A DNA stretch of 64,000 nt from Desulfobacteraceae bacterium (GTDB taxonomy: Bacteria; Desulfobacterota; DSM-4660; Desulfatiglandales; Desulfatiglandaceae). The notes under the pieces are model-generated. The model did no database searches, was not told the DNA's origin, and saw only the letters and a program-made list of their open reading frames with translations. Positions 1-12,023 of the stretch are shown here, one piece after another (the stretch's first letter is position 1; each line of letters starts with the position of its first letter). The DNA lies in assembly GCA_016844935.1 (NCBI GenBank), contig JAERTK010000143.1, forward strand, positions 1 through 64,000, read 5' to 3'. A program made the position numbers and the translations under genes.

Positions 1-37
1 ATTTTAATTTGGTCTTCAACGGAGGCTATGATATAAA

Positions 38-182
38 TAGTGTCTGAATGAAAACTAGGATTTTTTATCAAGGTCAAGAAAGATCAAAATTTTAACCACA
101 GGAATACGTTTGGTATTTCGAGGATTAAAATTTTTATCTGATGCAGAGATTGGCGAAAAAGACAGTTTTCGTTCGGGCACTA
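38..182 (+). mobile_element. 145-bp MITE-like element, copy A
   Basis: The element runs from TAGTGTCTGAATGAAAACT at the left to AGTTTTCGTTCGGGCACTA at the right, so the ends are imperfect terminal inverted repeats of about 19 bp (sequence TAGTGYCYGAAYGAAAACT). A second copy of identical length lies in opposite orientation at 18105-18249; my base-by-base comparison finds 5 differences in 145. It has no transposase and its short reading frames are not convincing genes. The TA at both outer ends would fit a TA target duplication as made by IS630/Tc1-mariner transposases, which is an inference. Bases 183-345 beyond it hold nothing I can support. Confidence 0.8.
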
Positions 183-345
183 GTTCTATGTATTTCACGC
201 CTCCACTGGACAGAGCAGTACATCCGTCTGACGAGCGGAGGCTTACAGGCGCTCTTGCAAGGAAGCCCCTTCCCAATCCGATTGTGCCGCCAGATTTGAA
301 ATGCCTTCCTACACCATCTCCATTGTTTCTGTGTATGTTTTATGG

Positions 346-424
346 GAAGTGAAAGAGAAAAGATATTGGACTTTGGTCCAATGACCGATGGATCAATGAA
401 TGGATCAGGGTTTGGAAAAACGGA
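346..424 (+). repeat. Dispersed repeat with central palindrome, copy 1
   Basis: Bases 346-384 are identical to 6762-6800 (39 nt), and 402-424 are identical to 6803-6825 (23 nt). This copy has 17 extra bases (385-401) that partly duplicate ATGGATCA. The palindrome ATTGGAC-TTTG-GTCCAAT is at 365-382. On the minus strand the right part encodes the last residues and the TGA stop of the FixJ-like regulator, so the repeat has been absorbed into that gene's 3' end. Confidence 0.75.
365..382. promoter_or_regulatory. 18-bp palindrome ATTGGAC-N4-GTCCAAT, copy 1
   Basis: It is a perfect 7+4+7 inverted repeat, also found at 3244-3261 and 6781-6798. Its size and symmetry suit a dimeric helix-turn-helix protein such as the adjacent LuxR/FixJ-type regulator. 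This copy lies just downstream of that regulator, so it could alternatively fold as a small hairpin at the transcript end. Function is inferred only. Confidence 0.45.
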
Positions 425-1031
425 TTCCAAGGGTTTCGGCAAACCGGACGAGATCTGCAAAAGATTCAGCCTTCATCTTCTGCATCACTTGGGCCCGGTG
501 AACCTTGACGGTCTTTTCGACTATTCCGAGATCGTAGGCAACCTGTTTGTTGAGCATGCCGCTCACGATAAGCTTAAAGACCTCACATTCCCGCGGAGTC
601 AGGGTATGCAGTCTGACGGTTAGGATTTTCATTCGCTTTTTCTGTTTCATCAAAATGTGATGTTTCCGAATCCCTTGGGAAACCGCATCCAGGAGTTCAT
701 GCTCTTTAAAGGGTTTTTCCAGAAAATCCGTTGCACCGGCTTTTAAAGCCTTCACGCTGTCAGGGACCGTACCGTAGGCCGTGATGAAAATGATGGGGAT
801 GAAAATCTCCTTTTCGACCAGGCGGTCCTGGAGCTCCAATCCGGTCAGTTTCGGCATTCTGATATCAGACACAAGGCAGCACGGCACATGGAAAGGGCCA
901 TAATCCAGAAATTCCAGCGCTGAACAAAAGGTCTTGGTTTCGTAGCCGCCGGATCGCAGCAACCTTTCCAACGCCTTTCGCACGGAAGGGTCGTCATCCA
1001 CCACATAAACAATGGGGTTTCCCGCCATCAT
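405..1031 (-). CDS. FixJ/LuxR-type response regulator
   Basis: This is a 208-aa two-domain response regulator that would activate transcription when phosphorylated by the kinase encoded just upstream. The receiver domain (about residues 6-120) has the acidic pocket VVDDD (11-14 region), phosphoacceptor D56 in SDIRMP, T84 and K106 in EKPF. A LuxR/GerE helix-turn-helix follows (LTPRECEVFKL, about residues 143-200). The chosen ATG at 1031 overlaps the kinase stop codon as ATGA, the usual sign of translational coupling; a longer frame to 1103 would run back inside the kinase gene. The last residues and stop lie in the dispersed repeat at 346-424. Target genes are unknown; the nearby 18-bp palindromes are candidates. 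Confidence 0.93.
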   Translation of the reverse strand: MMAGNPIVYVVDDDPSVRKALERLLRSGGYETKTFCSALEFLDYGPFHVPCCLVSDIRMPKLTGLELQDRLVEKEIFIPIIFITAYGTVPDSVKALKAGATDFLEKPFKEHELLDAVSQGIRKHHILMKQKKRMKILTVRLHTLTPRECEVFKLIVSGMLNKQVAYDLGIVEKTVKVHRAQVMQKMKAESFADLVRFAETLGIRFSKP

Positions 1032-3058
1032 GTCAGATTTTCCAGTTGCACCGAAAGAGTGAAGGCAAAGACGGCGCCACCTTCCGGATGGTTTGATGCA
1101 CAAATGGTTCCCCCGTGTTCCCTGATGATCGTCTGACTAATGGTAAGCCCCATGCCCATGCCGTCGGGTTTGGTTGTGTAAAAGGGCTCGAAGAGGGATT
1201 GGGCATTCTGTCCGTCAATACCAGTTCCAAAGTCTGCGACGGATACTTTCACGACCGATTCTTTTTGGTTTTCGGTTTTGATCACCAGTCGTCGCCGGTC
1301 AACAGGCACCTGTTTCATGGCGGCGGTCCCGTTCAGAATCAGATTGATGACGACCTGCTGTAGTTGTACGCGGTCCCCAAAGACCGGGGGCAGTTCCGGG
1401 GAAAAGTCCCTGATGATTACCAGTTCCTGCAGAAGGGAGTCGGCCCTTAAAAGAGACAGCACATCCGCAATCAGCTCATTCATGTCCAGGACAGTAAAAG
1501 GGGTCGGTTCTTTTTTCAGCAAGGCACGAATTTTTGAAATGATACTGCTGGCCCGTGCATTGTCCCGACTGATATCTTTAAGAATTTGAGAAACCTCGCC
1601 CGTGTCCGGTTCACTGACCGCCATAAACCGTATGGCGGCCTCGGTGTTGGCCTGAATGGCCGTTAGCGGCTGGTTGATCTCGTGGGCCAGGGAGGCGGTT
1701 AACTCTCCCATGATCCCCGTTCGTGTCACATGGGTAAGATGCTCCCACTGCTTTCGGGCTTCCGCTTCGGCTTTCATGCGCTCAGTGATATCCTTGATCC
1801 TGTGAATGATGCGGGTAACATTCCCTTCTTGATTGGGGATCGGGTCCGATGATATCTGGTACCATACGTGCCGTTTTGTATCATAGATTTCCTCTTCCTG
1901 ATGGACCCCCGATTGAAACGATCTCCTGACAGGGCAATCGAGAGACGGCTCCTTTGTTTCATGCAGCAAATCATGACAATGTCGCCCCAGAATTTCCGGT
2001 GATGAAAGTCCAAAGAAGGTGATTGCCGCGGCATTGTGTCGACGGATTTTCAAGTCCTCATCCAGAATCATGATAATGTCCGGCGTGGAATCAAAGGTGG
2101 TCTGCCATTCTTCAGCCGACTTTAGAACCCTTTCCTCCATCTCCTTACGTTCGGTGATGTCCACGGACGCTCCCATCAGGCGAAATGGTTTGGCGGCGCC
2201 ATCCCGCTGTCCCCGCGAACCGATCCAGCGGATGCTCCCATCAGGCAGTAGAATCCGGTATTCGATCACAAGGTTTTCCCCGGATCGAAACGCCCGATCC
2301 ACAGCCTGTTGGACCAACTCATGATCATCGGGATGAATAACGGTGAAGAAACGCTCATAGGTCACTTTCTCATGGGGTGAAAAATGAAACAGGTCCCTGT
2401 TTTTTTCCGAAACCCAGACGTCGTCGGTATCCATACCCATAATCCATAGACCTGTCCCGGCGGCATCGGTCGCTACCTTCAAACGTCTCTCACTTTCCTG
2501 CAATTTATAATCGGCTCGTTTTCGAAGAATGGCATTGGCGAAAACCTGTGCGAGCAGTTCCAATTGTTTTATTTGCGGTTCCGACCAAGCACGCTCTTCT
2601 CTCATGGTGCCAAAAGTTAGGGCCCCGAAGAGCAGGTCATCTCCCCCGGCCGACAAGGGAAATGTCAATGAAGACTTAACCCCGTAGCGGCGCCACACTT
2701 CCTGATCTCTAGCCGCATCCTTGGGCGCCGCCACCGTGGAGATGGCAACGATCTTGCCCGATTTTAGTTGTTCCAAAACCCATGGAAAATTCGATTCGGC
2801 CTCCATTTGCTCAGGAAGAAACGGCCCTCCAGCAGGTCGATGAACATGGGTTTGATAAAGGTAACGGGGGTTTTTGAGGGCCAACTGCCAAAGCGCCGAG
2901 AAGTCCAGCCCCTGCAGTTCGCAGACACGGCGCTGGGTGTCCAGGATGACGTCGTCTATCCGTTCAGCGGGCAGGTTGATGAAGTTCGCTGAAACTTCGG
3001 AAAGCAGCGTCTCAAACATCAGCCGACGCTCCAGCTGCTCCTCGGCTGAACTTTTCAT
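1028..3058 (-). CDS. Soluble GAF-PAS-PAS sensor histidine kinase
   Basis: This 676-aa kinase senses an unknown signal and phosphorylates the FixJ-like regulator encoded downstream with a 4-base overlap. A GAF-like domain occupies about residues 10-180, then a PAS/PAC domain (about 190-305, ending MGASVDITERKEMEE) and a second PAS (about 318-430). The transmitter has phosphoacceptor H459 in SLAHEINQPL, N-box N572, and the G boxes DFGTGI and GMGMGL (609-638). There is no transmembrane segment, so it is cytoplasmic. The SLAHEINQPLTAI signature places it with FixL/NtrB/DctB-type kinases. No haem-ligand can be assigned, so oxygen sensing should not be assumed. Confidence 0.93.
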   Translation of the reverse strand: MKSSAEEQLERRLMFETLLSEVSANFINLPAERIDDVILDTQRRVCELQGLDFSALWQLALKNPRYLYQTHVHRPAGGPFLPEQMEAESNFPWVLEQLKSGKIVAISTVAAPKDAARDQEVWRRYGVKSSLTFPLSAGGDDLLFGALTFGTMREERAWSEPQIKQLELLAQVFANAILRKRADYKLQESERRLKVATDAAGTGLWIMGMDTDDVWVSEKNRDLFHFSPHEKVTYERFFTVIHPDDHELVQQAVDRAFRSGENLVIEYRILLPDGSIRWIGSRGQRDGAAKPFRLMGASVDITERKEMEERVLKSAEEWQTTFDSTPDIIMILDEDLKIRRHNAAAITFFGLSSPEILGRHCHDLLHETKEPSLDCPVRRSFQSGVHQEEEIYDTKRHVWYQISSDPIPNQEGNVTRIIHRIKDITERMKAEAEARKQWEHLTHVTRTGIMGELTASLAHEINQPLTAIQANTEAAIRFMAVSEPDTGEVSQILKDISRDNARASSIISKIRALLKKEPTPFTVLDMNELIADVLSLLRADSLLQELVIIRDFSPELPPVFGDRVQLQQVVINLILNGTAAMKQVPVDRRRLVIKTENQKESVVKVSVADFGTGIDGQNAQSLFEPFYTTKPDGMGMGLTISQTIIREHGGTICASNHPEGGAVFAFTLSVQLENLT

Positions 3059-3427
3059 GAAGTACCTGTGGTATTAAAAGTTTGATGGAATAACTTCATG
3101 CGTTTTTAAACCGTCGGCTGAAAAAATTTGGGTTCGACGTTGGATGAAAACAGAACAGGGGTATTTTTAACCCAACAGGCCATGGAAAATCAAGGCCCAT
3201 AATCCCCATGCCCTCCGTTTAATCCAGGAACATGATACGCCGCATTGGACCAAAGTCCAATATCCTTTCTTTTTCCATGCGAGTAAGGTTTTTCCAATCC
3301 TCGACCCATATCTCCAAATTTTCTTTCGGGAAAACGGGATAAAGGCCACGGCAAAAAATAAAATTCTTAAGAGAAGTACAAGAGAAACAAACAAGAACCC
3401 AAACCAAAAAATGAAAGGAGAAAACAG
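3059..3427. other. 369-bp divergent intergenic region
   Basis: It separates the minus-strand two-component operon from the plus-strand repeat protein, so it should contain both promoters. The recognisable element is the palindrome at 3244-3261, embedded in a minus-strand sequence resembling the other dispersed repeats. An AAAGGAG ribosome site at about 3414-3420 precedes the next gene. I see no convincing -35/-10 pair and no gene. Confidence 0.5.
3244..3261. promoter_or_regulatory. 18-bp palindrome ATTGGAC-N4-GTCCAAT, copy 3
   Basis: This perfect inverted repeat has loop CAAA and lies in the divergent intergenic region, about 185 bp from the histidine kinase start and 165 bp from the repeat-protein start. 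The surrounding minus-strand bases (ATGGAAAAAGAAAGGAT before the palindrome) resemble, but do not match, the flanks of the other two copies. Position upstream of two genes favours an operator. Confidence 0.5.
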
Positions 3428-3763
3428 ATGAACACGCATGGATTAAAACACCCGGTTGTTATGGCACTTTTTGTGTTGATTGTTGGTTTCATACTCATGG
3501 TGCCATCCGGAGACCTAAATGCCCGTGATCGCGGCATCAACCAACCCGGCGCAGCGGGAAATAGAGGAGGAGATCCCGGCGTCAACCAACCGGGTGCGGC
3601 GGGAAATAGTGGGGGTGATCGCGGTATCAACCAACCCGGCGCGGCAGGTAATACCGGAAGGGATCCCGGCGTCAACCAACCCGGTGCGGCGGGAAATACC
3701 GGACGGGATCCGGGTGTCAACCAGCCCGGTGCAGCGGGTAACAGGAGAGGTCATCGCCGCTAG
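3428..3763 (+). CDS. Small exported protein with five NQPGAAGN repeats
   Basis: This 111-aa protein starts with a signal peptide or membrane anchor (hydrophobic stretch at about residues 10-27). Almost all the rest is five tandem 15-residue units of the form D-x-G-x-N-Q-P-G-A-A-G-N-x-G-x, ending in a basic tail RRGHRR. AAAGGAG lies eight bases before the ATG. The unit is low-complexity, Gly/Asn/Pro-rich and likely disordered; no enzymatic function is recognisable. It sits between the two-component pair and the ligand-gated channel, in the same direction as the channel. The repeat frame is open in other frames too, but only this one has signal peptide plus ribosome site. Confidence 0.7.
   Translation: MNTHGLKHPVVMALFVLIVGFILMVPSGDLNARDRGINQPGAAGNRGGDPGVNQPGAAGNSGGDRGINQPGAAGNTGRDPGVNQPGAAGNTGRDPGVNQPGAAGNRRGHRR
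3527..3751 (+). repeat. Five tandem 45-bp repeats
   Basis: Five in-phase 45-bp units each encode one 15-residue repeat of the protein above. The units differ mainly in third positions and at the variable residues (R/P at position 2, I/V at 4, R/S/T at 13). Such arrays change copy number readily by slippage or recombination. Confidence 0.85.
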
Positions 3764-3914
3764 ACGGTTCGAAAAGGCGCTCACAACCGTTTGGATGATC
3801 TCCAGATCAGCATAATCACCTACTTGTTGGGCGACGAGGATCGGCGCTTCATCCTTCGACCGGAGGGCTTGGAACATTGGTTCCCGCCGAAGTGGACCAG
3901 TTTGGAGGTAGCAA

Positions 3915-5021
3915 GTGATGGGTAGGCTCACAACAAAGGTTGTGTTATTGGCGGTCGCACTGGGGGGGGCGTGGAGCTCCGCCGCTGCCCTCCTCCCCGA
4001 GACGGCAGGCGGTCGTCTCGAAACAGAATCGATCAACGACTCTCTACTCACACCGCCGAGGGAAGAGGGCCCCGTGGTAGTACATACGGCCTTTGAAATT
4101 CATGACATCAATGACATCAGCGATGTAGCGGAAACATTCGAATTCACTGGTGTACTCACGCTCACATGGAAAGACCCACGCCAGGCCTTTAAACCTTCTG
4201 CCGGAGAGTTTGAGAAGGTCTTTCAGGGCTACTATCAGTTCAACGAACTCTCTACGCGCTGGTATCCCCTGGTGATTCTGACCAACGAATCCGGGCTGTA
4301 CCAGAAGAGTGGCGTTGTATTGCGTGTGCAGCCGGATGGAACTTCCACCCTGATTGAGAAGATAAACGCAGTTGCGGAGGTCGAAATGGACATGAGGTGG
4401 TTTCCGTTCGACGATCATCGCCTGGAAGCAGTCTTTCAGGTCTTGGGTTTCAATCGCGATGAGGTCCTCCTGCAAGCGGAATCTACTTCCGAAGGTTCCC
4501 TCTCGGATCGTACATTCGGGGTACCTCAATGGACCATCACGAAAAGCGGCACGTCGACCCGGGATCGACAGGCATTTTACGACGGACGCCGAAGTGTTTC
4601 TTCAGCGTTTGTTGTGAGCCTTGATGTCGAGCGGGACTCTTTTTACATCAGGCGAATGGTCAGTTTTCCTCTTGCCATCATCGTACTTCTTTCATTCTCG
4701 GTGTTCTGGATGGATCGGTCATCGCTTGGCGATCGGATCAATGTTTCGTTCATTGGAATCCTGATGGCAGTCGCCTATCAACTGGTTATGGGGGATATTT
4801 TGCCAAAGATCTCCTATTTCACCCTAATACATGCTTTTTTAATTCTCAGCTTCATGACCATGGCTGCAACTGTTGTGATCAACCTGGTGGTGGGCGCTAT
4901 GGACAAGAAGGGAAGCTACGAGCTTGGCGATCGGGTCGATCGCCGCTGTCGATGGATCTTTCCTCTGGCCTATTTCGGGCTCATTGCCGTCATATTTGGA
5001 GCAGCGAGATTGTTCTTTTAG
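3915..5021 (+). CDS. Prokaryotic pentameric ligand-gated ion channel
   Basis: This 368-aa protein belongs to the Cys-loop receptor superfamily (bacterial GLIC/ELIC type). A signal peptide (1-25) is followed by an extracellular beta-sandwich (about 45-240) carrying the hallmark RWFPFDDHRLE (161-171, equivalent to the W-x-P-x-D of the Cys loop; the two loop cysteines are absent, as in other bacterial members). Four membrane helices follow: M1 about 246-266 with P252, pore-lining M2 about 272-293, M3 about 303-328, M4 about 347-367. There is no long M3-M4 cytoplasmic domain, again the bacterial form. GGAGG precedes a GTG (3915) and an ATG (3918); either may start. The ligand cannot be read from sequence. 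Confidence 0.9.
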   Translation: MMGRLTTKVVLLAVALGGAWSSAAALLPETAGGRLETESINDSLLTPPREEGPVVVHTAFEIHDINDISDVAETFEFTGVLTLTWKDPRQAFKPSAGEFEKVFQGYYQFNELSTRWYPLVILTNESGLYQKSGVVLRVQPDGTSTLIEKINAVAEVEMDMRWFPFDDHRLEAVFQVLGFNRDEVLLQAESTSEGSLSDRTFGVPQWTITKSGTSTRDRQAFYDGRRSVSSAFVVSLDVERDSFYIRRMVSFPLAIIVLLSFSVFWMDRSSLGDRINVSFIGILMAVAYQLVMGDILPKISYFTLIHAFLILSFMTMAATVVINLVVGAMDKKGSYELGDRVDRRCRWIFPLAYFGLIAVIFGAARLFF

Positions 5022-5274
5022 TCTCCGGCCAAACCAGTGTCTGCACCGCCGCCCACCTTCCCATAAACACCAACTTTGCGGGAGCGCGTTAATGGCAGCA
5101 TGAAAGACGCCCAGGCCAGCATAGTTAGTTTCCATCCATTTATCATGGACAAGGGGCAAGGCATCTGAATTTAAACGCCAGTTAGGGCTGCAAAAGCAAA
5201 ACGCGAATGCAACAAGAATCGATACTGATACTGGTTGCATCTCCCTGGTTTGCTCACCGCTGAACTGTAATGTG

Positions 5275-6720
5275 CTATTTGCGTGATTCAAAAAATCGAC
5301 GCGAGATGATGCGGTATAGTAGCAGAGTTATGAAGAACATCAGGATCAATGATGCACCCAAGATAAAAAAGTCCTTCATCCATGTTTTGCCAAGGACCTC
5401 AACCCGGTCGGTAAATCTAAACGCCACTGGCAGGGTCTTTTCCAGTTTTGGGGATGTCAGGAGTTCATCGACCGAATGGAGCAATTCATTGAGCTGCTGA
5501 ACGGAAATAGTAAATTCCGATACAACCCCACGGTAGTCCTCGATGCTGAGCCGTCCCTGGTTGGGGCCTGTGTCGAAGCGAGCCGCCAATGCATCGACGG
5601 AGTTCAAGGCTGTGTTGATCCCGTCCGCCAGCTTGTTTCCGGCCGCCAGTATCTGTCGCAGGTCCGAAAATAAGCCTTTGACAGCTTTTTCCTCCGATAG
5701 GAGATCCTCCATCAGTTTCTCTCGCTCATTAGACGCCATACGTGCAAACTGGTTGATCGCCGCACTGCGTTCCTTGGAGATTATCTCAGGAAACTGTTCC
5801 ACGATTTCGGTGAATCGTTCGGATATGTTCGTAAATCGATTGACGTCCTTCAGAACTTGTCTAATATCAGGTTCAGTGACCAATTCTCTATAGGCAAGAT
5901 CCACCTGCAGATTAGAAGTAGCCTGCATTCTGCTCAACAGGTACATGGCCCGATCCCCGAGCAGACGGATTTCGTCGGCCGCCCGTGTCGCTTCGGATAC
6001 CTTGGCGAAAAAACCATCTGGCCGCGTCACCTCGGCCAGGGGAGAATCCGGTCGCAACTCTCCGAAGTCTCTGAAACGCGTGAAGCTAACAGCTGTTTCA
6101 TCGGGATGTCTTTTACGCCATTCAAGAATCACAATGTACAATTCCTTCACCTGCCGCTTTGTGAGCACGTTCGCAGCGATGGACCAGATATCTGTTTCAA
6201 ACTTCCGAAGATCCTCAACCAGGACCTCGGCCCGACCACCGAAGACTTTTGCTTTCCAGGTTTCCTCCCAGATCATTCGGCTGAGCGTCGTCAGCACCAC
6301 CATGTCCAAGAGTGCTGTCCCAGGGTTTGGACCGGCCGCAATCCCGAAAGCCGAGGAGGACAGATAGAACCTGCTTCTGGCAGCCGCAAGGCGAACTTCT
6401 GGTGAAGCGGGTTCCTTTTCAAATTTTTCGGTAGCGGTGAAAACCATAGCGCCGAATCGATCGGCAAAATTCATCAGCGCTGTCTGGAGTTGGGTCCGGG
6501 TGAGAGATTCTTTTTGGCTGGATTGGCTCTCGCTGATACGGACCGGTTTTTCCTTTGCATCTCTGCGATCGGATCCAATCTCGTTGCCAAATGGAATTCC
6601 AAGCAACCCCCCGCAGCCGGCCGTGACTATCAAGCAGAACGCCCCAAAAGCCAGGAAACCCCAACCCAGGGGACGACTATATTTAATGAACGCCCTCAAC
6701 AATGTTCTTGATTTCCCCAA
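5275..6720 (-). CDS. Membrane-anchored protein of unknown function
   Basis: I do not recognise the family. The protein (about 481 aa from a TTG at 6720) has an N-terminal hydrophobic segment ending IVTAGC, a possible weak lipobox or signal anchor, then a long, mostly helical, charged region with coiled-coil character, and a single C-terminal transmembrane helix followed by a basic tail. The frame remains open to a TTG at 6831, but that extension runs through the dispersed repeat and palindrome at 6762-6825, so I place the start after it. There is no ATG start with a ribosome site, and 5' sequencing error or an alternative start is possible. The mature part would sit in the periplasm if both hydrophobic segments insert. 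Confidence 0.65.
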   Translation of the reverse strand: MGKSRTLLRAFIKYSRPLGWGFLAFGAFCLIVTAGCGGLLGIPFGNEIGSDRRDAKEKPVRISESQSSQKESLTRTQLQTALMNFADRFGAMVFTATEKFEKEPASPEVRLAAARSRFYLSSSAFGIAAGPNPGTALLDMVVLTTLSRMIWEETWKAKVFGGRAEVLVEDLRKFETDIWSIAANVLTKRQVKELYIVILEWRKRHPDETAVSFTRFRDFGELRPDSPLAEVTRPDGFFAKVSEATRAADEIRLLGDRAMYLLSRMQATSNLQVDLAYRELVTEPDIRQVLKDVNRFTNISERFTEIVEQFPEIISKERSAAINQFARMASNEREKLMEDLLSEEKAVKGLFSDLRQILAAGNKLADGINTALNSVDALAARFDTGPNQGRLSIEDYRGVVSEFTISVQQLNELLHSVDELLTSPKLEKTLPVAFRFTDRVEVLGKTWMKDFFILGASLILMFFITLLLYRIISRRFFESRK

Positions 6721-6761
6721 AAAACGCTCTGCCAAAAAAGACGTTGCGGTGAAGTCTATGA

Positions 6762-6825
6762 GAAGTGAAAGAGAAAAGATATTGGACTTTGGTCCAATGA
6801 AAGGATCAGGGTTTGGAAAAACGGA
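6762..6825 (+). repeat. Dispersed repeat with central palindrome, copy 2
   Basis: It matches copy 1 over 39 nt and 23 nt with the 17-bp insertion of copy 1 missing. It lies immediately upstream of the minus-strand unknown membrane protein and is therefore placed like a promoter region for it. Bases 6826-6933 beyond it hold no gene. Confidence 0.75.
6781..6798. promoter_or_regulatory. 18-bp palindrome ATTGGAC-N4-GTCCAAT, copy 2
   Basis: Perfect 7+4+7 inverted repeat identical to 365-382. It lies about 60 bp upstream of the proposed start of the unknown membrane protein, a normal operator distance. Confidence 0.5.
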
Positions 6826-6933
6826 CGTCAACGTGTAAAACGGGGACGTCTATAAGTTCAAAAGTGATACATATTTCTCGCTGCCGTTCTTCTTTGGGCG
6901 AAATAGCCTAACACATAATCCACATCCGAACCG

Positions 6934-8313
6934 TCAGGATTGATAGCTGTTCACAATGGCATCTAACCGTTCCACCAGGTAGAGGGGAAGGGAAATTAAT
7001 GAATATTTTACCTGTTTACGTTGTTTGTTTATGCTGATAACGGTATCTATCTGATGAACAGCGGGTAGCTGTGTGTCAAACCGGATGGCAAGTGGCGCCT
7101 GTTTGGCTCCCATAAACTGATTCAGAGATTTCAGGGTCCCTGTAGCACCTGATTTAACCTCTATGGGGATTATATTTCCCCCCAGCCCAATGACAAAATC
7201 CAGTTCAGCGTTAGACGAGCGCCCTTCACGTAACCAGTAGTTTAATTCGCGATTTGGTTTATCCGCCAGCATGGCTTGTAAATGTTGTCCGATGAATTGT
7301 TCGGCAACGGCTCCTTGGTTGATGAGTTTCATTTCATCCATCTGCGAGATACTACGCCAGTCCAGGCCACAAATCGCGTTCATCAGCCCAATATCAAGGA
7401 AGAGTAATTTGAAAACCTTTTCCTCAAGATCAGCCTGCAGCGGTAAACCGGAGCAATGGCTATGGATAACTTTGCCGATCACACGAGCCATTGCCAGCAA
7501 CTCAATGTCCTTTTTTATTGTAACGGACTGATCTTGACGTGAAATGTTGCTGTATTTAATTTTCACACCCACATTTCTAGCGGCAAAATTAAATACATTA
7601 AGCATGCGATTTAAGTTTCTGGAGCCTGCATATTTAGGAAAATCATCACGATAGGTTTCGATAATAGAATTATGTACCTCGCTTACATCTTTGTAGCTGC
7701 GATTCTCCGAAAAGACCGCCACTGCTTCTGGCATACCACCGATATAATAATAGGATCGGAGAAAATGCAGTAAGCGCTGATGAACAATCTCGCCGATTTC
7801 CCGGCCTGGTTCATAATGATTGATAAAATCATGCAATCGCTTCTCATTCATTGCCGACAGGAACTCACTGAATGTCATGGGGCCCATGTGTAAATACTGA
7901 ATTCTTCCCACAGGCATGGAAAAAGCATGATCTGCCAGAGCAAATTCCAATAAGGAGCCTGCGCTGAGAACCGGAAATTCAGGCATATCCTCATTAAAAT
8001 ACCGCAGAGCAGGAATGGCTTCCGGAACGGCCTGTATTTCATCAAGAAACAAAAGAGTATCATCCCCAATGCTTTCCATATTCGGCAGAAACTCTATTTG
8101 TTGAATTATCTGTTCTGGATCTTTGCTTGAAAATATTGATGACAACTCAGGGTGTCGTTCCAGGTTGACATTACGTAAAGGTTGTTGATATTGCCGAGCG
8201 AACAATTCTACCAGTGTCGATTTGCCGACCTGTCTGGCGCCACGGATTATAAGAGGTTTCCGTTTTTTATTACGCAGCCAGGCATAGAGGGTTTGTAATT
8301 GTTGCCGTTGCAT
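6934..8313 (-). CDS. AAA ATPase with DUF4143 domain
   Basis: This 459-aa protein belongs to the AAA_14/DUF4143 family. It has Walker A GARQVGKST near the N-terminus, Walker B LLFLDEIQ, and a C-terminal DUF4143 region with a nuclease-like core (AELDFVIG and IPIEVKSG, reminiscent of the PD-(D/E)xK fold). Family members are scattered by horizontal transfer; no precise role is established, though links with toxins, transposition or defence have been suggested. Start: the ATG at 8313 has an AGGAGG site, and the candidate promoter at 8357-8385 excludes the longer frame beginning at 8358. The gene is visibly richer in A+T than its neighbours and adjoins gene remnants, supporting acquisition. Confidence 0.9.
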   Translation of the reverse strand: MQRQQLQTLYAWLRNKKRKPLIIRGARQVGKSTLVELFARQYQQPLRNVNLERHPELSSIFSSKDPEQIIQQIEFLPNMESIGDDTLLFLDEIQAVPEAIPALRYFNEDMPEFPVLSAGSLLEFALADHAFSMPVGRIQYLHMGPMTFSEFLSAMNEKRLHDFINHYEPGREIGEIVHQRLLHFLRSYYYIGGMPEAVAVFSENRSYKDVSEVHNSIIETYRDDFPKYAGSRNLNRMLNVFNFAARNVGVKIKYSNISRQDQSVTIKKDIELLAMARVIGKVIHSHCSGLPLQADLEEKVFKLLFLDIGLMNAICGLDWRSISQMDEMKLINQGAVAEQFIGQHLQAMLADKPNRELNYWLREGRSSNAELDFVIGLGGNIIPIEVKSGATGTLKSLNQFMGAKQAPLAIRFDTQLPAVHQIDTVISINKQRKQVKYSLISLPLYLVERLDAIVNSYQS

Positions 8314-8356
8314 TTGAGAGAGCCCTCCTTCCTGTTCACTGTATCGAAACACACCC

Positions 8357-8385
8357 AATATATCATAATACGATTATTGTTTCAA
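8357..8385 (-). promoter_or_regulatory. Sigma70-like promoter of the AAA ATPase
   Basis: On the minus strand TTGAAA (8385-8380), a 17-bp spacer and TATATT (8362-8357) form a near-consensus promoter. The predicted transcript start is about 35 nt upstream of the ATG at 8313. Confidence 0.65.
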
Positions 8386-8449
8386 GGGGGTGTTTTGCTG
8401 TGAAAAACAGGGGCATTACAGGATGTCCCACTACTCGCTACTTCTGCTG

Positions 8450-8545
8450 TCAGCACACGGTTTCATCTTCGTATGTTTTAAAAATCGAATCCGTGGTGAC
8501 GACTGTCAGTTGTTGAATATGGGCTGTAGCGATAATCATCATGCT
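8450..8545 (-). pseudogene. Remnant of a PIN-domain (VapC-like) toxin
   Basis: The minus strand encodes MMIIATAHIQQLTVVTTD and ends with FKTYEDETVC and a TGA. This is the typical C-terminal end of PIN-domain RNases (D-x-x-I-x-A-x-A, then L-x-T-x-D). The N-terminal two-thirds are absent and no start or antitoxin is nearby, so it is a truncated relic. The break at about 8546 abuts a fragment of a different gene on the other strand. Confidence 0.6.
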
Positions 8546-8549
8546 ATAC

Positions 8550-8684
8550 ACTAAACGCCCACCTCGCGTGTATCTTACCGAGTTCAACCCTGATTCCCTT
8601 AATATTGTGATTCGGTACTGGTATCACCCAGCGGAACTAAGGATTCATCGTTTTCAGATGGAAGCGATAATTGCGGCCGGCTAA
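8550..8684 (+). pseudogene. Remnant of an MscS-channel C-terminal domain
   Basis: The plus strand encodes about 44 residues with PPRVYLTEFNPDSLNI and VIRYWYHP followed by a TAA. This resembles the cytoplasmic domain of MscS-family channels (P-x-V-x-x-x-x-F-x-x-S-x-x-x-x-x-x-Y-W). Nothing upstream continues it. It is not part of the intact MscS gene at 10029-12023. Next to the PIN relic it marks a recombination scar. Confidence 0.5.
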
Positions 8685-8707
8685 AGCAGTATTTATGGTT
8701 ATTTTCT

Positions 8708-8736
8708 TTGACGCACAAGGGGATTTTCTCTATAAT
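8708..8736 (+). promoter_or_regulatory. Sigma70-like promoter for the VOC lipoprotein operon
   Basis: TTGACG (8708-8713), a 17-bp spacer and a perfect TATAAT (8731-8736) lie 56 bp before the ATG of the VOC lipoprotein. The two following genes are four bases or less apart and would be cotranscribed. Confidence 0.75.
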
Positions 8737-8792
8737 CCCTTCACAAGAAGTAACGTCTTCTCTAGTTTCGTAAGTATGAATGGGTTAATACA

Positions 8793-9683
8793 ATGCAATC
8801 ATTAGTGCGTTTTGTCGGTGTTTTAATTATATCTGCAGCTTTTCTGAGTGGCTGTGCCAATTCCGGTAAGTTGTCGGAGGGTGCTGCCGAAATGGCGCAA
8901 ATCCCCATAACGGAAAACCCCAGCGGCAAGACCTATCCGGGAAAATTTATCTGGCATGATCTGCTGACACCGGATCCCCTGTCGGCCGGGAAGTTTTACG
9001 AAAAACTGTTTGGCTGGCAGATTGAATACCAGGGACGCTATGCAGTCGTGCGTAATCACGGCAAAGTTATTGCGGGGATCCTGCAGGTGGAACCACCAGA
9101 TGGCAAAGCCAGAGATGGTGTCTGGATACCCTGGGTATCCGTGGCCGATGTGGATGCAGCGGTCAATCTGGTAAAGGCCAATGGCGGAAAGATATTGAAA
9201 GGCCCGGTTAATATGGATCAACGCGGTCAGGGCGTTCTGATCAGCGACCCGCAACGGGCACACCTGGTGTTACTCAACGCAAAAGAAGGAGATCCGGCCG
9301 ATACCGAGGCAGCCATCGGTGATTGGCTGTGGGATGAGATTTGGACTGATGACCCGAACCGCATCCAAAATTTCTACGGGTCCGTGTTGGGCTATGATGC
9401 GATAGATTCGGGAGACCGATATGGTGTCTTCAAAGCCAAAGAAAAATGGCGTGCGGGTATCCGTCATGTGCAGGATGATCGCGAGCACATGCTTTGGGTG
9501 CCGGTTGTCCGGGTGGCTGATCCCGAGGCGGCTGCGCAGCGCGTGAGAGAGTTGGGCGGTGTGGTATGGGTCTCACCCGATGAGGCACCGAGTAAAGGTA
9601 ATACCGCATTGATTGCCGATACCACCGGCGCACTGTTGTTGATACAGCGATGGCCCCCGCTGGCATCCAAAGGGGGGCTTTGA
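8793..9683 (+). CDS. VOC-family lipoprotein with two glyoxalase-like domains
   Basis: This 296-aa protein has a lipoprotein signal (about residues 1-21, lipobox FLSGC) and should be anchored in the envelope. Two vicinal-oxygen-chelate domains follow in tandem, about 45-155 (IWHDLLTPDP, WVSVADVDAA) and 170-285 (WDEIWTDDP, VPVVRVADPE). This is the two-domain form seen in CFP30-type bleomycin-resistance/glyoxalase-like proteins. The usual metal-binding His/Glu set is not fully recognisable, so enzymatic activity is uncertain. It has its own strong promoter and a small lipoprotein gene right behind it. Confidence 0.85.
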   Translation: MQSLVRFVGVLIISAAFLSGCANSGKLSEGAAEMAQIPITENPSGKTYPGKFIWHDLLTPDPLSAGKFYEKLFGWQIEYQGRYAVVRNHGKVIAGILQVEPPDGKARDGVWIPWVSVADVDAAVNLVKANGGKILKGPVNMDQRGQGVLISDPQRAHLVLLNAKEGDPADTEAAIGDWLWDEIWTDDPNRIQNFYGSVLGYDAIDSGDRYGVFKAKEKWRAGIRHVQDDREHMLWVPVVRVADPEAAAQRVRELGGVVWVSPDEAPSKGNTALIADTTGALLLIQRWPPLASKGGL

Positions 9684-9685
9684 TC

Positions 9686-9925
9686 ATGAAACAATTTATC
9701 AGGCTGTTTGTGATTTTTGTGGCACTCCTCTGTGTTCTGTTTTTGACAGGTTGCACCCCCATCGACAGGTCTGCGTGGTCCAGCCCGGGTTATTACGATG
9801 TATATGACGGCTACGGGTATCCATATGGGCACGGCTATGGCGGTTATCCGTATCGGTACGATAGATCCAGATCATCAGCAGGCATGGGTCGTCCCGTCGG
9901 AATGCCGCGGGGCGGTCGTCGCTAG
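9686..9925 (+). CDS. Small Tyr/Gly-rich lipoprotein
   Basis: This 79-aa protein starts at the ATG at 9686, two bases after the preceding stop, with a G-rich ribosome site inside the upstream gene. Its N-terminus is a lipoprotein signal (lipobox FLTGC at about residue 22). The mature part is rich in Gly, Tyr and Arg (for example YGYPYGHGYGGYPYR) and ends in GGRR. No domain is recognised. Such low-complexity lipoproteins are usually surface- or periplasm-exposed. It probably forms an operon with the VOC lipoprotein. Confidence 0.75.
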   Translation: MKQFIRLFVIFVALLCVLFLTGCTPIDRSAWSSPGYYDVYDGYGYPYGHGYGGYPYRYDRSRSSAGMGRPVGMPRGGRR

Positions 9926-10028
9926 ATTCGAGCTAGACATCATCCGAGACAAGACATGTGTCACCTCCTGCCTTTCAGGTTATGTAGGGAATCATATGTT
10001 GGCAGTGCATTGTAATATTCAGAACCCC

Positions 10029-12023
10029 TTACACGCTTTCCCGCTCCCCATGAAGAACCAGACGCCGAGGAACGGGAATCTTGATCCCCACCTGGTCGAA
10101 CCTGTTTTTGATTCGTCGAAGCATTTCACGTTTCACCATCAACATCTTGTCAGGCTTAGTCTTTATCATAAATTTGATGGTGACCGCAGACTCACCAAAC
10201 CCATCCACACCTTGCATCACCGGTTCGTCGATAATGTGGTCGTTGTACTTGGGGTCTTTTGCAATTTCACGGGCCAGTTCAAGGAGTATCCCCATGACTG
10301 TGTCCACATCTTCCTCGAAAGCCACATCGATATTAAAGACGGCGCGGGCCCACTCAAAGGTCTTGTTGGTCACTTGTGTGATTTTCCCGTTGGGTATGAA
10401 ATGGACGCGGCCCTCCAGGTCACGGAGTACGGTGGTTCGCATGTTGACCTTTTCAACAGTGCCCGTCATGTTTCCGATGGTAACAATATCGCCCAGTTCA
10501 TACTGGTCTTCCAGCAAAATCATGAATCCGCTGAAATAATCCCGCATCAGATTCTGGGCGCCAAAAGCCACGGCCAGGCCCAGGATAGCGGCGCCACCCA
10601 GTACGGTTTTGACATCCATACCCGCCTCCTGAAGGACCATGAGGAATCCAAAGAGAATGATGAGGATCCTCGCAACGGCGCCAAAGCTCAGGGCAATGGT
10701 TTGGGCGCGATTGTCTCGCCCTTCCTTCGCACCACGGCTACTATGCACAAACACCCGGGCCAATCTGGAGGAGAACAAACGGGAAAGCAGCAGCAGGATT
10801 GCCACAGCTAAGATCACCATGAGGATGCGAGGTCCACGGGTAGTAACCCAGTCCAAAAGATTGTCCGGATGAAAGGGGCTTTGCAGCCACACACTCTTGC
10901 TGCGGGCCTCTTCCGCCATTTCACGCTTTCGTTCGGCTTTAGACACAACCATTTCTTTTTCCATCCGGACTTGCGTCAAACGCTCGCGGAGATCATTGAG
11001 ATGGGCTTTTCGTTCGACAATTTCTCCGCTGGCTCGACGGATCTTCCCTTGAACCGATTTAATATCCTGTTGTAATTGATGAAGTTTTTCTCGACCGGCA
11101 CCGGATTTCTTATTCTCTTCCAACTCCACCAACCGTTTTTTGAGAAATTCTTTCATGTTGGCGAGGCTTTGTTCAGATGTAAAAAGCAGCTTCTCATCCA
11201 GTTCTATCTGTTTCTGGAGGGACTTCTTGTGCGCCACGAAATCGACCACGGCCCGCTCTGCCTTTTGAGCCTCCATTGCACTTTCTTCAGCTTCCTTTCG
11301 CGCTTCTATCTGCTCCGGGGTTTCAGCACCCTCTTTCAGCGTCCCCTCCTGGGCTATGGGCGTCACTTTTGATTCCGCTGACGGTTTAACTTTCACGGAT
11401 CGCTGAATCAAAGAAGGCACTGGGGAGGACTTTTTCTGAGATTGGGGCAAAGCCTTTTGTGGCGAGACCGGCTTCGCTTCGGTTCCGCTCTTGTCCGTGC
11501 CTCTCAAGTTTCCAAGGACCTTCCGGTCGTTTTCAATCTTCTTCTCCAATGCCTTGATCTTTTTCAAGGTGGTTTTCTTTGCCACAAGGGCCAGGTCAAC
11601 ATGCTTTCTGAAAAAGCCATAGTCACCCTTTAGGCGTTCCAGACTTGCATCGGCCGATTTCCTCTCGTTGGATATGGACGGACCTTTCGACTTATCCTCG
11701 GGCTGCTCCACCGCCTGCAACTGTTCCCTGACTTTTTCCAGTTTGGCCCTCATTTTTCGAAATTCTGTTTCCTTCCTCTGTAGATCTTTCTTGAGTTCCC
11801 CAAGGGTTTCCTCATCTGCCTTGATGGTTTCAAGAAGGGTCAAGATCCGCTCAGTATCAGAGGTTTTCGCGATTGGGTCGCCGTTTATCTCAGGCTTCTC
11901 AGCTGTTTCTTCTGCGAGGACCGTTGGGGCAGAAAGCAGGATAAAGGTCAATCCACCTGTTACGATCAACAACAAAATGCACAGGCAAAGCGAATGATTA
12001 AAAGAAATTCGGTATTTAAGCAT
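10029..12023 (-). CDS. MscS-family mechanosensitive channel with long coiled coil
   Basis: This 664-aa protein has a signal peptide (about 1-37), a long charged periplasmic coiled-coil region (about 60-370), then several transmembrane helices and the MscS pore and beta domain. The pore helix and beta domain are clear: GLAVAFGAQNLMRDYF, the conserved YELGDIVTIG, and HFIPNGKITQVTN. It would open under membrane tension and release solutes on osmotic downshift. The extended N-terminal domain resembles the MscK/YbdG-like large forms rather than the short E. coli MscS (about 286 aa). It ends in a short mixed-charge tail. It is transcribed alone, convergent with the small lipoprotein. Confidence 0.9.
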   Translation of the reverse strand: MLKYRISFNHSLCLCILLLIVTGGLTFILLSAPTVLAEETAEKPEINGDPIAKTSDTERILTLLETIKADEETLGELKKDLQRKETEFRKMRAKLEKVREQLQAVEQPEDKSKGPSISNERKSADASLERLKGDYGFFRKHVDLALVAKKTTLKKIKALEKKIENDRKVLGNLRGTDKSGTEAKPVSPQKALPQSQKKSSPVPSLIQRSVKVKPSAESKVTPIAQEGTLKEGAETPEQIEARKEAEESAMEAQKAERAVVDFVAHKKSLQKQIELDEKLLFTSEQSLANMKEFLKKRLVELEENKKSGAGREKLHQLQQDIKSVQGKIRRASGEIVERKAHLNDLRERLTQVRMEKEMVVSKAERKREMAEEARSKSVWLQSPFHPDNLLDWVTTRGPRILMVILAVAILLLLSRLFSSRLARVFVHSSRGAKEGRDNRAQTIALSFGAVARILIILFGFLMVLQEAGMDVKTVLGGAAILGLAVAFGAQNLMRDYFSGFMILLEDQYELGDIVTIGNMTGTVEKVNMRTTVLRDLEGRVHFIPNGKITQVTNKTFEWARAVFNIDVAFEEDVDTVMGILLELAREIAKDPKYNDHIIDEPVMQGVDGFGESAVTIKFMIKTKPDKMLMVKREMLRRIKNRFDQVGIKIPVPRRLVLHGERESV

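Follow-up and report, generated by a model that had tools for sequence, protein, structure and literature searches.

A bacterial pentameric ligand-gated ion channel gene as a probable target of a small two-component envelope regulon

Pentameric ligand-gated ion channels (pLGICs) of bacteria raise the question of when they are made and with what they act. In the accessible text of a 2016 survey (PMC4795631), no biological role was known for the pLGIC of any unicellular organism, nor were the ligands or the conditions of use. The locus studied here places such a channel near a sensor-regulator pair, and two answers had been put forward in the initial annotation: a neighboring repeat peptide could be processed to ligands or bind the extracellular domain of the channel, or the channel could be controlled at transcription by the sensor. 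The window (the whole stretch of DNA that was analyzed, 64,000 nucleotides from a Desulfobacteraceae bacterium) begins at base 1 of a 73.5-kb contig (C143) of a fragmented assembly (6.09 Mb, 342 contigs, contamination 7.35%). In map order, it holds a response regulator gene (-), a histidine kinase gene (-), the repeat peptide gene (+), the channel gene (+) and a gene for a helical membrane protein (-); the stretch 3428-5021 comprises the two plus-strand ORFs 3428-3763 and 3915/3918-5021. The repeat peptide, the pLGIC and the kinase/regulator pair without membrane segments were all confirmed in the sequence. That the channel is "preceded by" the sensor pair is correct in map order only, as the pair is divergent from peptide and channel. 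The statement that bacterial pLGICs are rare also held in this group, in which 14 of 395 genomes contained one at E ≤ 1e-10.

The channel gene (3918-5021, +, with GGAGG upstream) encodes a protein of 367-368 amino acids, depending on the start codon (GTG 3915 or ATG 3918). Pfam searches identified the ligand-binding domain (Neur_chan_LBD, E 1.2e-16, 61 bits against a cut-off of 26) and, below its cut-off of 28.1, the membrane domain (Neur_chan_memb, 23.3 bits, E 8.6e-5). The NCBIfam model LGIC_1 matched with an E-value of 3.2e-58, yet under that model's cut-off. By profile the protein thus combines the ligand-binding domain and the four-helix membrane domain of a pLGIC. Its sequence matches the PDB pLGICs sTeLIC, GLIC and ELIC with E-values of about 1e-22 to 1e-19, and an AlphaFold2 model built on an alignment of 30 channels (pLDDT 84.5) has a pLGIC fold, with sTeLIC (9ex6) as its best PDB match in Foldseek (E 2.3e-26). 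A residue alignment that took 30 of the 62 available channels showed that P163 and D165 of the Pro-loop are invariant (30/30) and that Leu 9' of M2 is present in all 30 as well. From sequence and model we hold with high confidence that the protein is a genuine pLGIC. At the -1' position of M2, where 27/30 aligned channels have D or E, the channel reads GDR. This is close to the metazoan cationic motif GE[K/R] and suggests cations, with the caveat, given in the accessible text of PMC4795631, that an acidic -1' residue is insufficient for cation selectivity in prokaryotes. A second, distant pLGIC (26% identity) is encoded elsewhere in the source genome (L033 14623-15660, G000:C163).

The amine site of ELIC is described in the accessible text of PMC3119659 as formed by Phe133, Tyr174, Phe187, Tyr38 and Glu131. 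In the channel studied here the Phe133 position is Leu (Leu in 19/30 and Phe in 3/30 aligned channels), the Tyr38 position is Val and the Glu131 position is Gln, though Glu occurs there in 16/30. Loop C differs from that of ELIC and is not reliably alignable. By its site residues the protein does not belong to the ELIC-like amine-gated channels, and with most of that site replaced, amines are not the obvious first candidates for a ligand. Any ligand assignment for the channel is of low confidence.

The neighboring gene (3428-3763, +, with AAGGAG 5' of the ATG) encodes a peptide of 111 amino acids with five 15-residue NQPGAAGN units starting at residue 33 (TRF score 256-297; consensus [GR]D[RP]G[IV]NQPGAAGN[RST][GR]). 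The units differ mainly at synonymous sites (pN/pS 0.20) and therefore represent a coding repeat. Hydropathy analysis showed one hydrophobic segment, which is N-terminal, and the peptide is probably exported; no Pfam or NCBIfam match was obtained. That the peptide, whole or as 15-mers, serves the channel as a ligand or auxiliary partner, as proposed in the initial annotation, could be argued from its position beside the channel on the same strand, its probable export and the conservation of the repeats among copies, and also from the PBP-II and Cache neighbors known as partners of pLGICs (PMC549065, accessible text). We nevertheless regard this partnership as extremely doubtful. The check that had been suggested for it, whether channel homologs stand beside repeat proteins, was run on 61 related channels and gave none with such a peptide (0/61 loci); the peptide occurs in 1/85 genomes of the order and the NQPGAAGN-coding 8-mer in 1/395 genomes of the phylum sample (0/394 others), in both cases in the source genome only. 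In the closest relative of the channel the DNA similarity does not include the peptide. Near related channels, searches for the peptide, for tandem repeats (73 stretches scanned, window included and two genomes counted twice) and for 6-mers repeated within an upstream ORF likewise gave nothing comparable. The 151-nt gap between peptide and channel folds no better than shuffled sequences, and no Rfam match was found within 1-12000. An open stretch of 53 codons between peptide stop and channel start has no relatives and was taken as chance.

The 61 related channel loci were found in a scan of named genomes and are spread over many phyla. In the order, besides the source genome, 2/85 genomes have a channel, in each case only a 26-31% relative and no close copy. 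The nearest relative, 73% identical, is in a Myxococcales assembly (L042), with which the window shares DNA similarity only between 3887 and the channel stop. Among plasmids one distant channel match was found (23% identity), and in the viral contigs searched there was no channel relative. This distribution fits a horizontally mobile single-gene module. A Pfam scan of neighbors within 1.2 kb of the 61 channels covered 128 upstream ORFs and 113 of 137 downstream ORFs, the 24 shortest of the latter being left out, and no neighbor family had more than five members. The commonest were Na_Ca_ex (4) upstream and Amidohydro_3 (5) and SBP_bac_5 (3) downstream; the four Na_Ca_ex ORFs are probably those of the Haliea/Halioglobus loci L075, L076, L080 and L081. 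Kinase- or regulator-like ORFs were present at 5/61 loci (L051, L083, L087, L089, L095). Close examination of L042, L043, L022 and L023 revealed no matching kinase, regulator or palindrome (see below).

Two channel orthologs (56-59% identity; G430, G438) lie directly downstream of the lipid-transport genes pqiA-pqiB (L022 9736-15168 and L023 5560-10681, on contigs shared with L084 and L054). The neighbor scan showed no enrichment of PqiAB beside channels (2/61 loci), and MCE-system families were found in single members. AsmA/YhdP genes offer a possible further link (L034, L040). Near the channel in the window, 8793-9925 carries a glyoxalase-like lipoprotein gene and a gene for a small Tyr/Gly-rich lipoprotein; a similar glyoxalase/lipoprotein pair (glyoxalase 30% identity) adjoins a different pLGIC and a YhdP-like gene in G438 (L040 1782-7971).

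The sensor pair consists of a response regulator (405-1037, -) with a receiver (Response_reg, E 3.9e-28) and a LuxR-type HTH (GerE, E 1.3e-20) and a GAF-PAS-PAS-HisKA-HATPase histidine kinase (1028-3058, -). A receiver with a GerE HTH beside a HisKA/HATPase kinase makes it a two-component system of the NarL/FixJ type. The best NCBIfam models, FixJ for the regulator (204.1 bits, cut-off 255) and FixL for the kinase (E 5e-77, 259.6 bits, cut-off 850), were matched below the equivalog cut-offs, so that the pair is not assigned to FixL/FixJ itself. Hydropathy analysis detected no hydrophobic segment in either protein. The kinases of relatives (L024 5999-9166, L025 10848-13724, L112 2308-4581) have, at the N-terminus, some 350 additional residues that include an apparent signal sequence. 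This extra region had no Pfam match in L025 and is missing from the kinase in the window, whose sensor input seems, by this comparison, to have been lost or replaced. A second, N-terminally truncated regulator copy (73% identity, identical reading helix) is located at L115 1990-2514 (G000:C313), a short contig on which no palindrome was found.

A candidate operator for this regulator was found in the perfect palindrome ATTGGAC-N4-GTCCAAT, of which the 6.09-Mb genome has exactly three copies, all at this locus; the expectation by chance is 0.022 at window base composition, and the reversed control sequence has no occurrence in the genome. All three fall in a stretch of about 6.4 kb at the regulator gene. 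Copy 1 (365-382) is beside the regulator, 23 nt past its stop codon, with a promoter-like tail directed left, off the contig end. Copy 2 (3244-3261) is located between the kinase gene and the peptide-channel pair, with its tail directed to peptide and channel. Copy 3 (6781-6798) lies upstream of the 5275-6708 gene, at which its tail is directed. Copies 1 and 3 are in near-duplicate segments (341-424 and 6757-6825). When up to two mismatches were allowed in the 16-nt form, sites in the window were no more numerous than in shuffles, and the signal therefore lies in the exact copies. At the related channel loci, of which 53 include over 500 nt of sequence 5' of the channel, no exact palindrome (0/61) and one site with one mismatch were found; the link between palindrome and channel is for this reason specific to the source genome.

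Among the 85 genomes of the order, 11 have the short form TTGGACN4GTCCAA and 17 have its reversed control, mostly as single, scattered occurrences; because the control exceeds the short form, only clustering and the fuller form are distinctive. The fuller form ATTGGACYWWRGTCCAAT was found in 7/85 genomes (16 sites), its control in none. The regulator was detected at E ≤ 1e-70 in 6/85 genomes, and regulator and ATTGGACYWWRGTCCAAT occur together in five (Fisher p 3.8e-6, or 3.8e-5 without the source genome). Of the 16 exact sites 14 are on a contig that also carries the regulator or its kinase; the other two are G016:C192 and G065:C70, and the lone palindrome of G016 is without the usual tail. 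All six regulator-bearing genomes have a palindrome 8-326 nt past the regulator stop, one of them in variant form, and in G062 a palindrome adjoins the kinase N-terminus at a contig end (similarity judged by eye). The regulator-bearing genome without an exact match, G081, has TTGTAC-N4-GTACAA, in which both arms are changed alike, and its regulator alone has KAHR in the recognition helix; the other five have KVHR, a stretch that we take to lie at the position of StyR Val176. StyR-group regulators contact DNA there. They bind ATAAACN4GTTTAT, according to the accessible text of PMC5874301. This single case of co-variation between arms and reading helix is suggestive of a match between regulator and palindrome, and confidence in the pairing of the two as a whole is good.

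The palindrome is followed by promoter-like features at a fixed distance. Nineteen sites (16 exact and three with one or two mismatches) were read in both orientations, and a -10-like hexamer was scored as at least four of six matches at offset 20-25. Such a hexamer follows 17/20 oriented sites with a TATCTT-like tail and 3/18 without this tail; at random window positions it was found in 847/5000. At the site before the channel the tail reads TATCCT, and 23 nt past the palindrome stands the weak candidate -10 element TAAGGT (3284-3289, +; 3/6 against TATAAT). This geometry would set the palindrome near -43 relative to the transcription start. The region around -43 is where class II activators bind.

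Orientation bears on the possibility that copy 2 serves autoregulation of the kinase-regulator genes, peptide and channel being mere neighbors with an unrelated promoter. The site precedes the kinase start by about 185 nt, and palindromes are likewise upstream of the kinase in G025 and G062, as this explanation would have it. In all three genomes, however, the TATCTT-like tail and the -10-like element are directed away from the kinase: to MlaE/MlaD/PqiC-like genes in G025, to a Gly-zipper protein in G062 and to the peptide-channel pair here. Sites distant from any kinase, moreover, precede other genes. Autoregulation is on these grounds an unlikely explanation of copy 2.

Alternatively, the palindrome might not bind protein at all but act as an intrinsic terminator for the kinase-regulator operon and other genes. 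It forms a stem of 7 bp, after which comes a T-rich stretch, and stands just past the regulator stop codon in several genomes; the palindromes, copy 2 among them, were also called terminator-like by the scanner, in a promoter/terminator scan that found no more of either than shuffles give. The stem, however, has only three G-C pairs, and for at least six sites the flanking genes are divergent, so that no transcript ends there (window 3244, L024 5652, L026 7988, L026 16584, L027 4100 and L029 5816; simple ORF picks). Terminators keep pairing, not exact sequence. The arms in G081 changed along with the regulator reading helix, and a -10-like hexamer follows the palindrome at fixed spacing, all of which makes a terminator very improbable. 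For the preferred reading, an operator of the regulator, the proposal in the initial annotation that the sensor pair controls transcription gains strong sequence-level support from a palindrome that in the source genome is confined to this locus, lies upstream of the peptide-channel pair in a promoter-like arrangement and in related genomes tracks regulator orthologs. Regulation of the channel by the pair is accordingly held with moderate confidence, as a prediction from DNA.

The genes behind the palindrome in relatives indicate what kind of regulon this may be (genes are simple ORF picks there, and targets were assigned by position only). Putative targets in G025 are MlaE and MlaD with a PqiC-like lipoprotein, a glycosyltransferase and a patatin-like lipoprotein; in G059 a DUF2092 protein and a CusF-like exported protein; in G062 the Gly-zipper protein; in G081 a SYLF-domain protein; and in G065 a TVGYGD K+ channel, CusF/DUF1344-like exported proteins and a distant homolog of the 5275-6708 protein. 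The last is a borderline match (E 9.8e-4) with a palindrome upstream (L026 7988, one mismatch). The K+ channel is a second ion channel behind this palindrome. Its gene (4453-5133; Ion_trans_2, E 4.2e-13) is preceded by the palindrome at L027 4100, in G065:C56, from another family of the order. With envelope and lipid genes and one K+ channel gene behind the palindromes of relatives, the regulon has the look of a response for envelope homeostasis.

The 5275-6708 gene (-, start tentative) encodes a helical envelope protein without Pfam family that has two hydrophobic segments, one N-terminal and one C-terminal; its model (pLDDT 58.6) was too poor for a fold search. The window also carries an MscS-like gene at 10029-12023, and relatives of the 5275-6708 protein adjoin an MscS-like gene twice in G059 (L109 4843-8748; L111 3021-4843; MscS identity judged by eye).

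We consider it likely that a small, self-contained two-component envelope regulon acquired the channel as one of its targets. In the proposed mechanism, the phosphorylated regulator would bind the palindrome as a dimer, centered near -43, and activate the adjacent promoter. Repeat peptide and pLGIC would be made together, probably from one transcript, which is assumed, with separate ribosome sites, and the 5275-6708 membrane protein and a gene beyond the contig end would be parallel targets. A horizontally mobile pLGIC gene would thereby have joined an envelope-homeostasis regulon. The channel is probably an inner-membrane channel of the cation type, gated by a periplasmic ligand other than an ELIC-type amine, and the peptide would be a co-expressed envelope protein, not the channel ligand. 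A broader reading is that the pLGICs of this clade are effectors of outer-envelope lipid homeostasis that sense a periplasmic lipid-related or stress signal and pass cations within a response to envelope stress. It is suggested by the MlaE/MlaD/PqiC-type transporter that holds the operator slot in G025 and by the orthologs following pqiA-pqiB in G430 and G438. We think it quite unlikely; if true, it would be the first cellular role for this receptor superfamily in bacteria. The nearby sensor-regulator pair with a readable operator would offer a first handle on when a bacterial channel of this kind is switched on, and the regulon members in relatives (envelope/lipid genes and a K+ channel) indicate where to look for its role. 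Searches of the open-access literature turned up neither a pLGIC controlled through a two-component operator nor this palindrome.

Compared with known systems, the locus resembles the prokaryotic pLGIC neighborhoods described in 2004 (PMC549065) in that the channel is in a predicted operon with an exported protein. The partners in the accessible text of that study are PBP-II or Cache proteins and a Na+/H+ symporter, and the term "two-component" is absent from it. With ELIC of Erwinia chrysanthemi (Dickeya dadantii) the channel shares the fold, the Pro-loop, the acidic -1' residue and Leu 9' of M2; it differs in overall sequence (~21-22% identity), in the replaced amine-site positions and in loop C, and no two-component link is reported for ELIC in the accessible text of PMC3119659. 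The best bacterial matches by fold include sTeLIC (TM-score on target 0.87-0.89) and GLIC (0.87-0.88), whereas identity to GLIC, sTeLIC and DeCLIC is ~21-23%, and DeCLIC has an extra N-terminal domain that is absent here. The sensor pair, a PAS kinase with a FixJ/NarL-type regulator, is of the same kind as FixLJ and TodST/StySR, although its scores are under the NCBIfam cut-offs for FixL and FixJ. The StyR-group operator ATAAACN4GTTTAT (PMC5874301, accessible text) likewise has a 4-nt spacer and an inner AC-N4-GT. The locus is set apart from FixLJ, TodST and StySR by its half-site, TTGGAC, and by its predicted targets, which are local envelope and channel genes.
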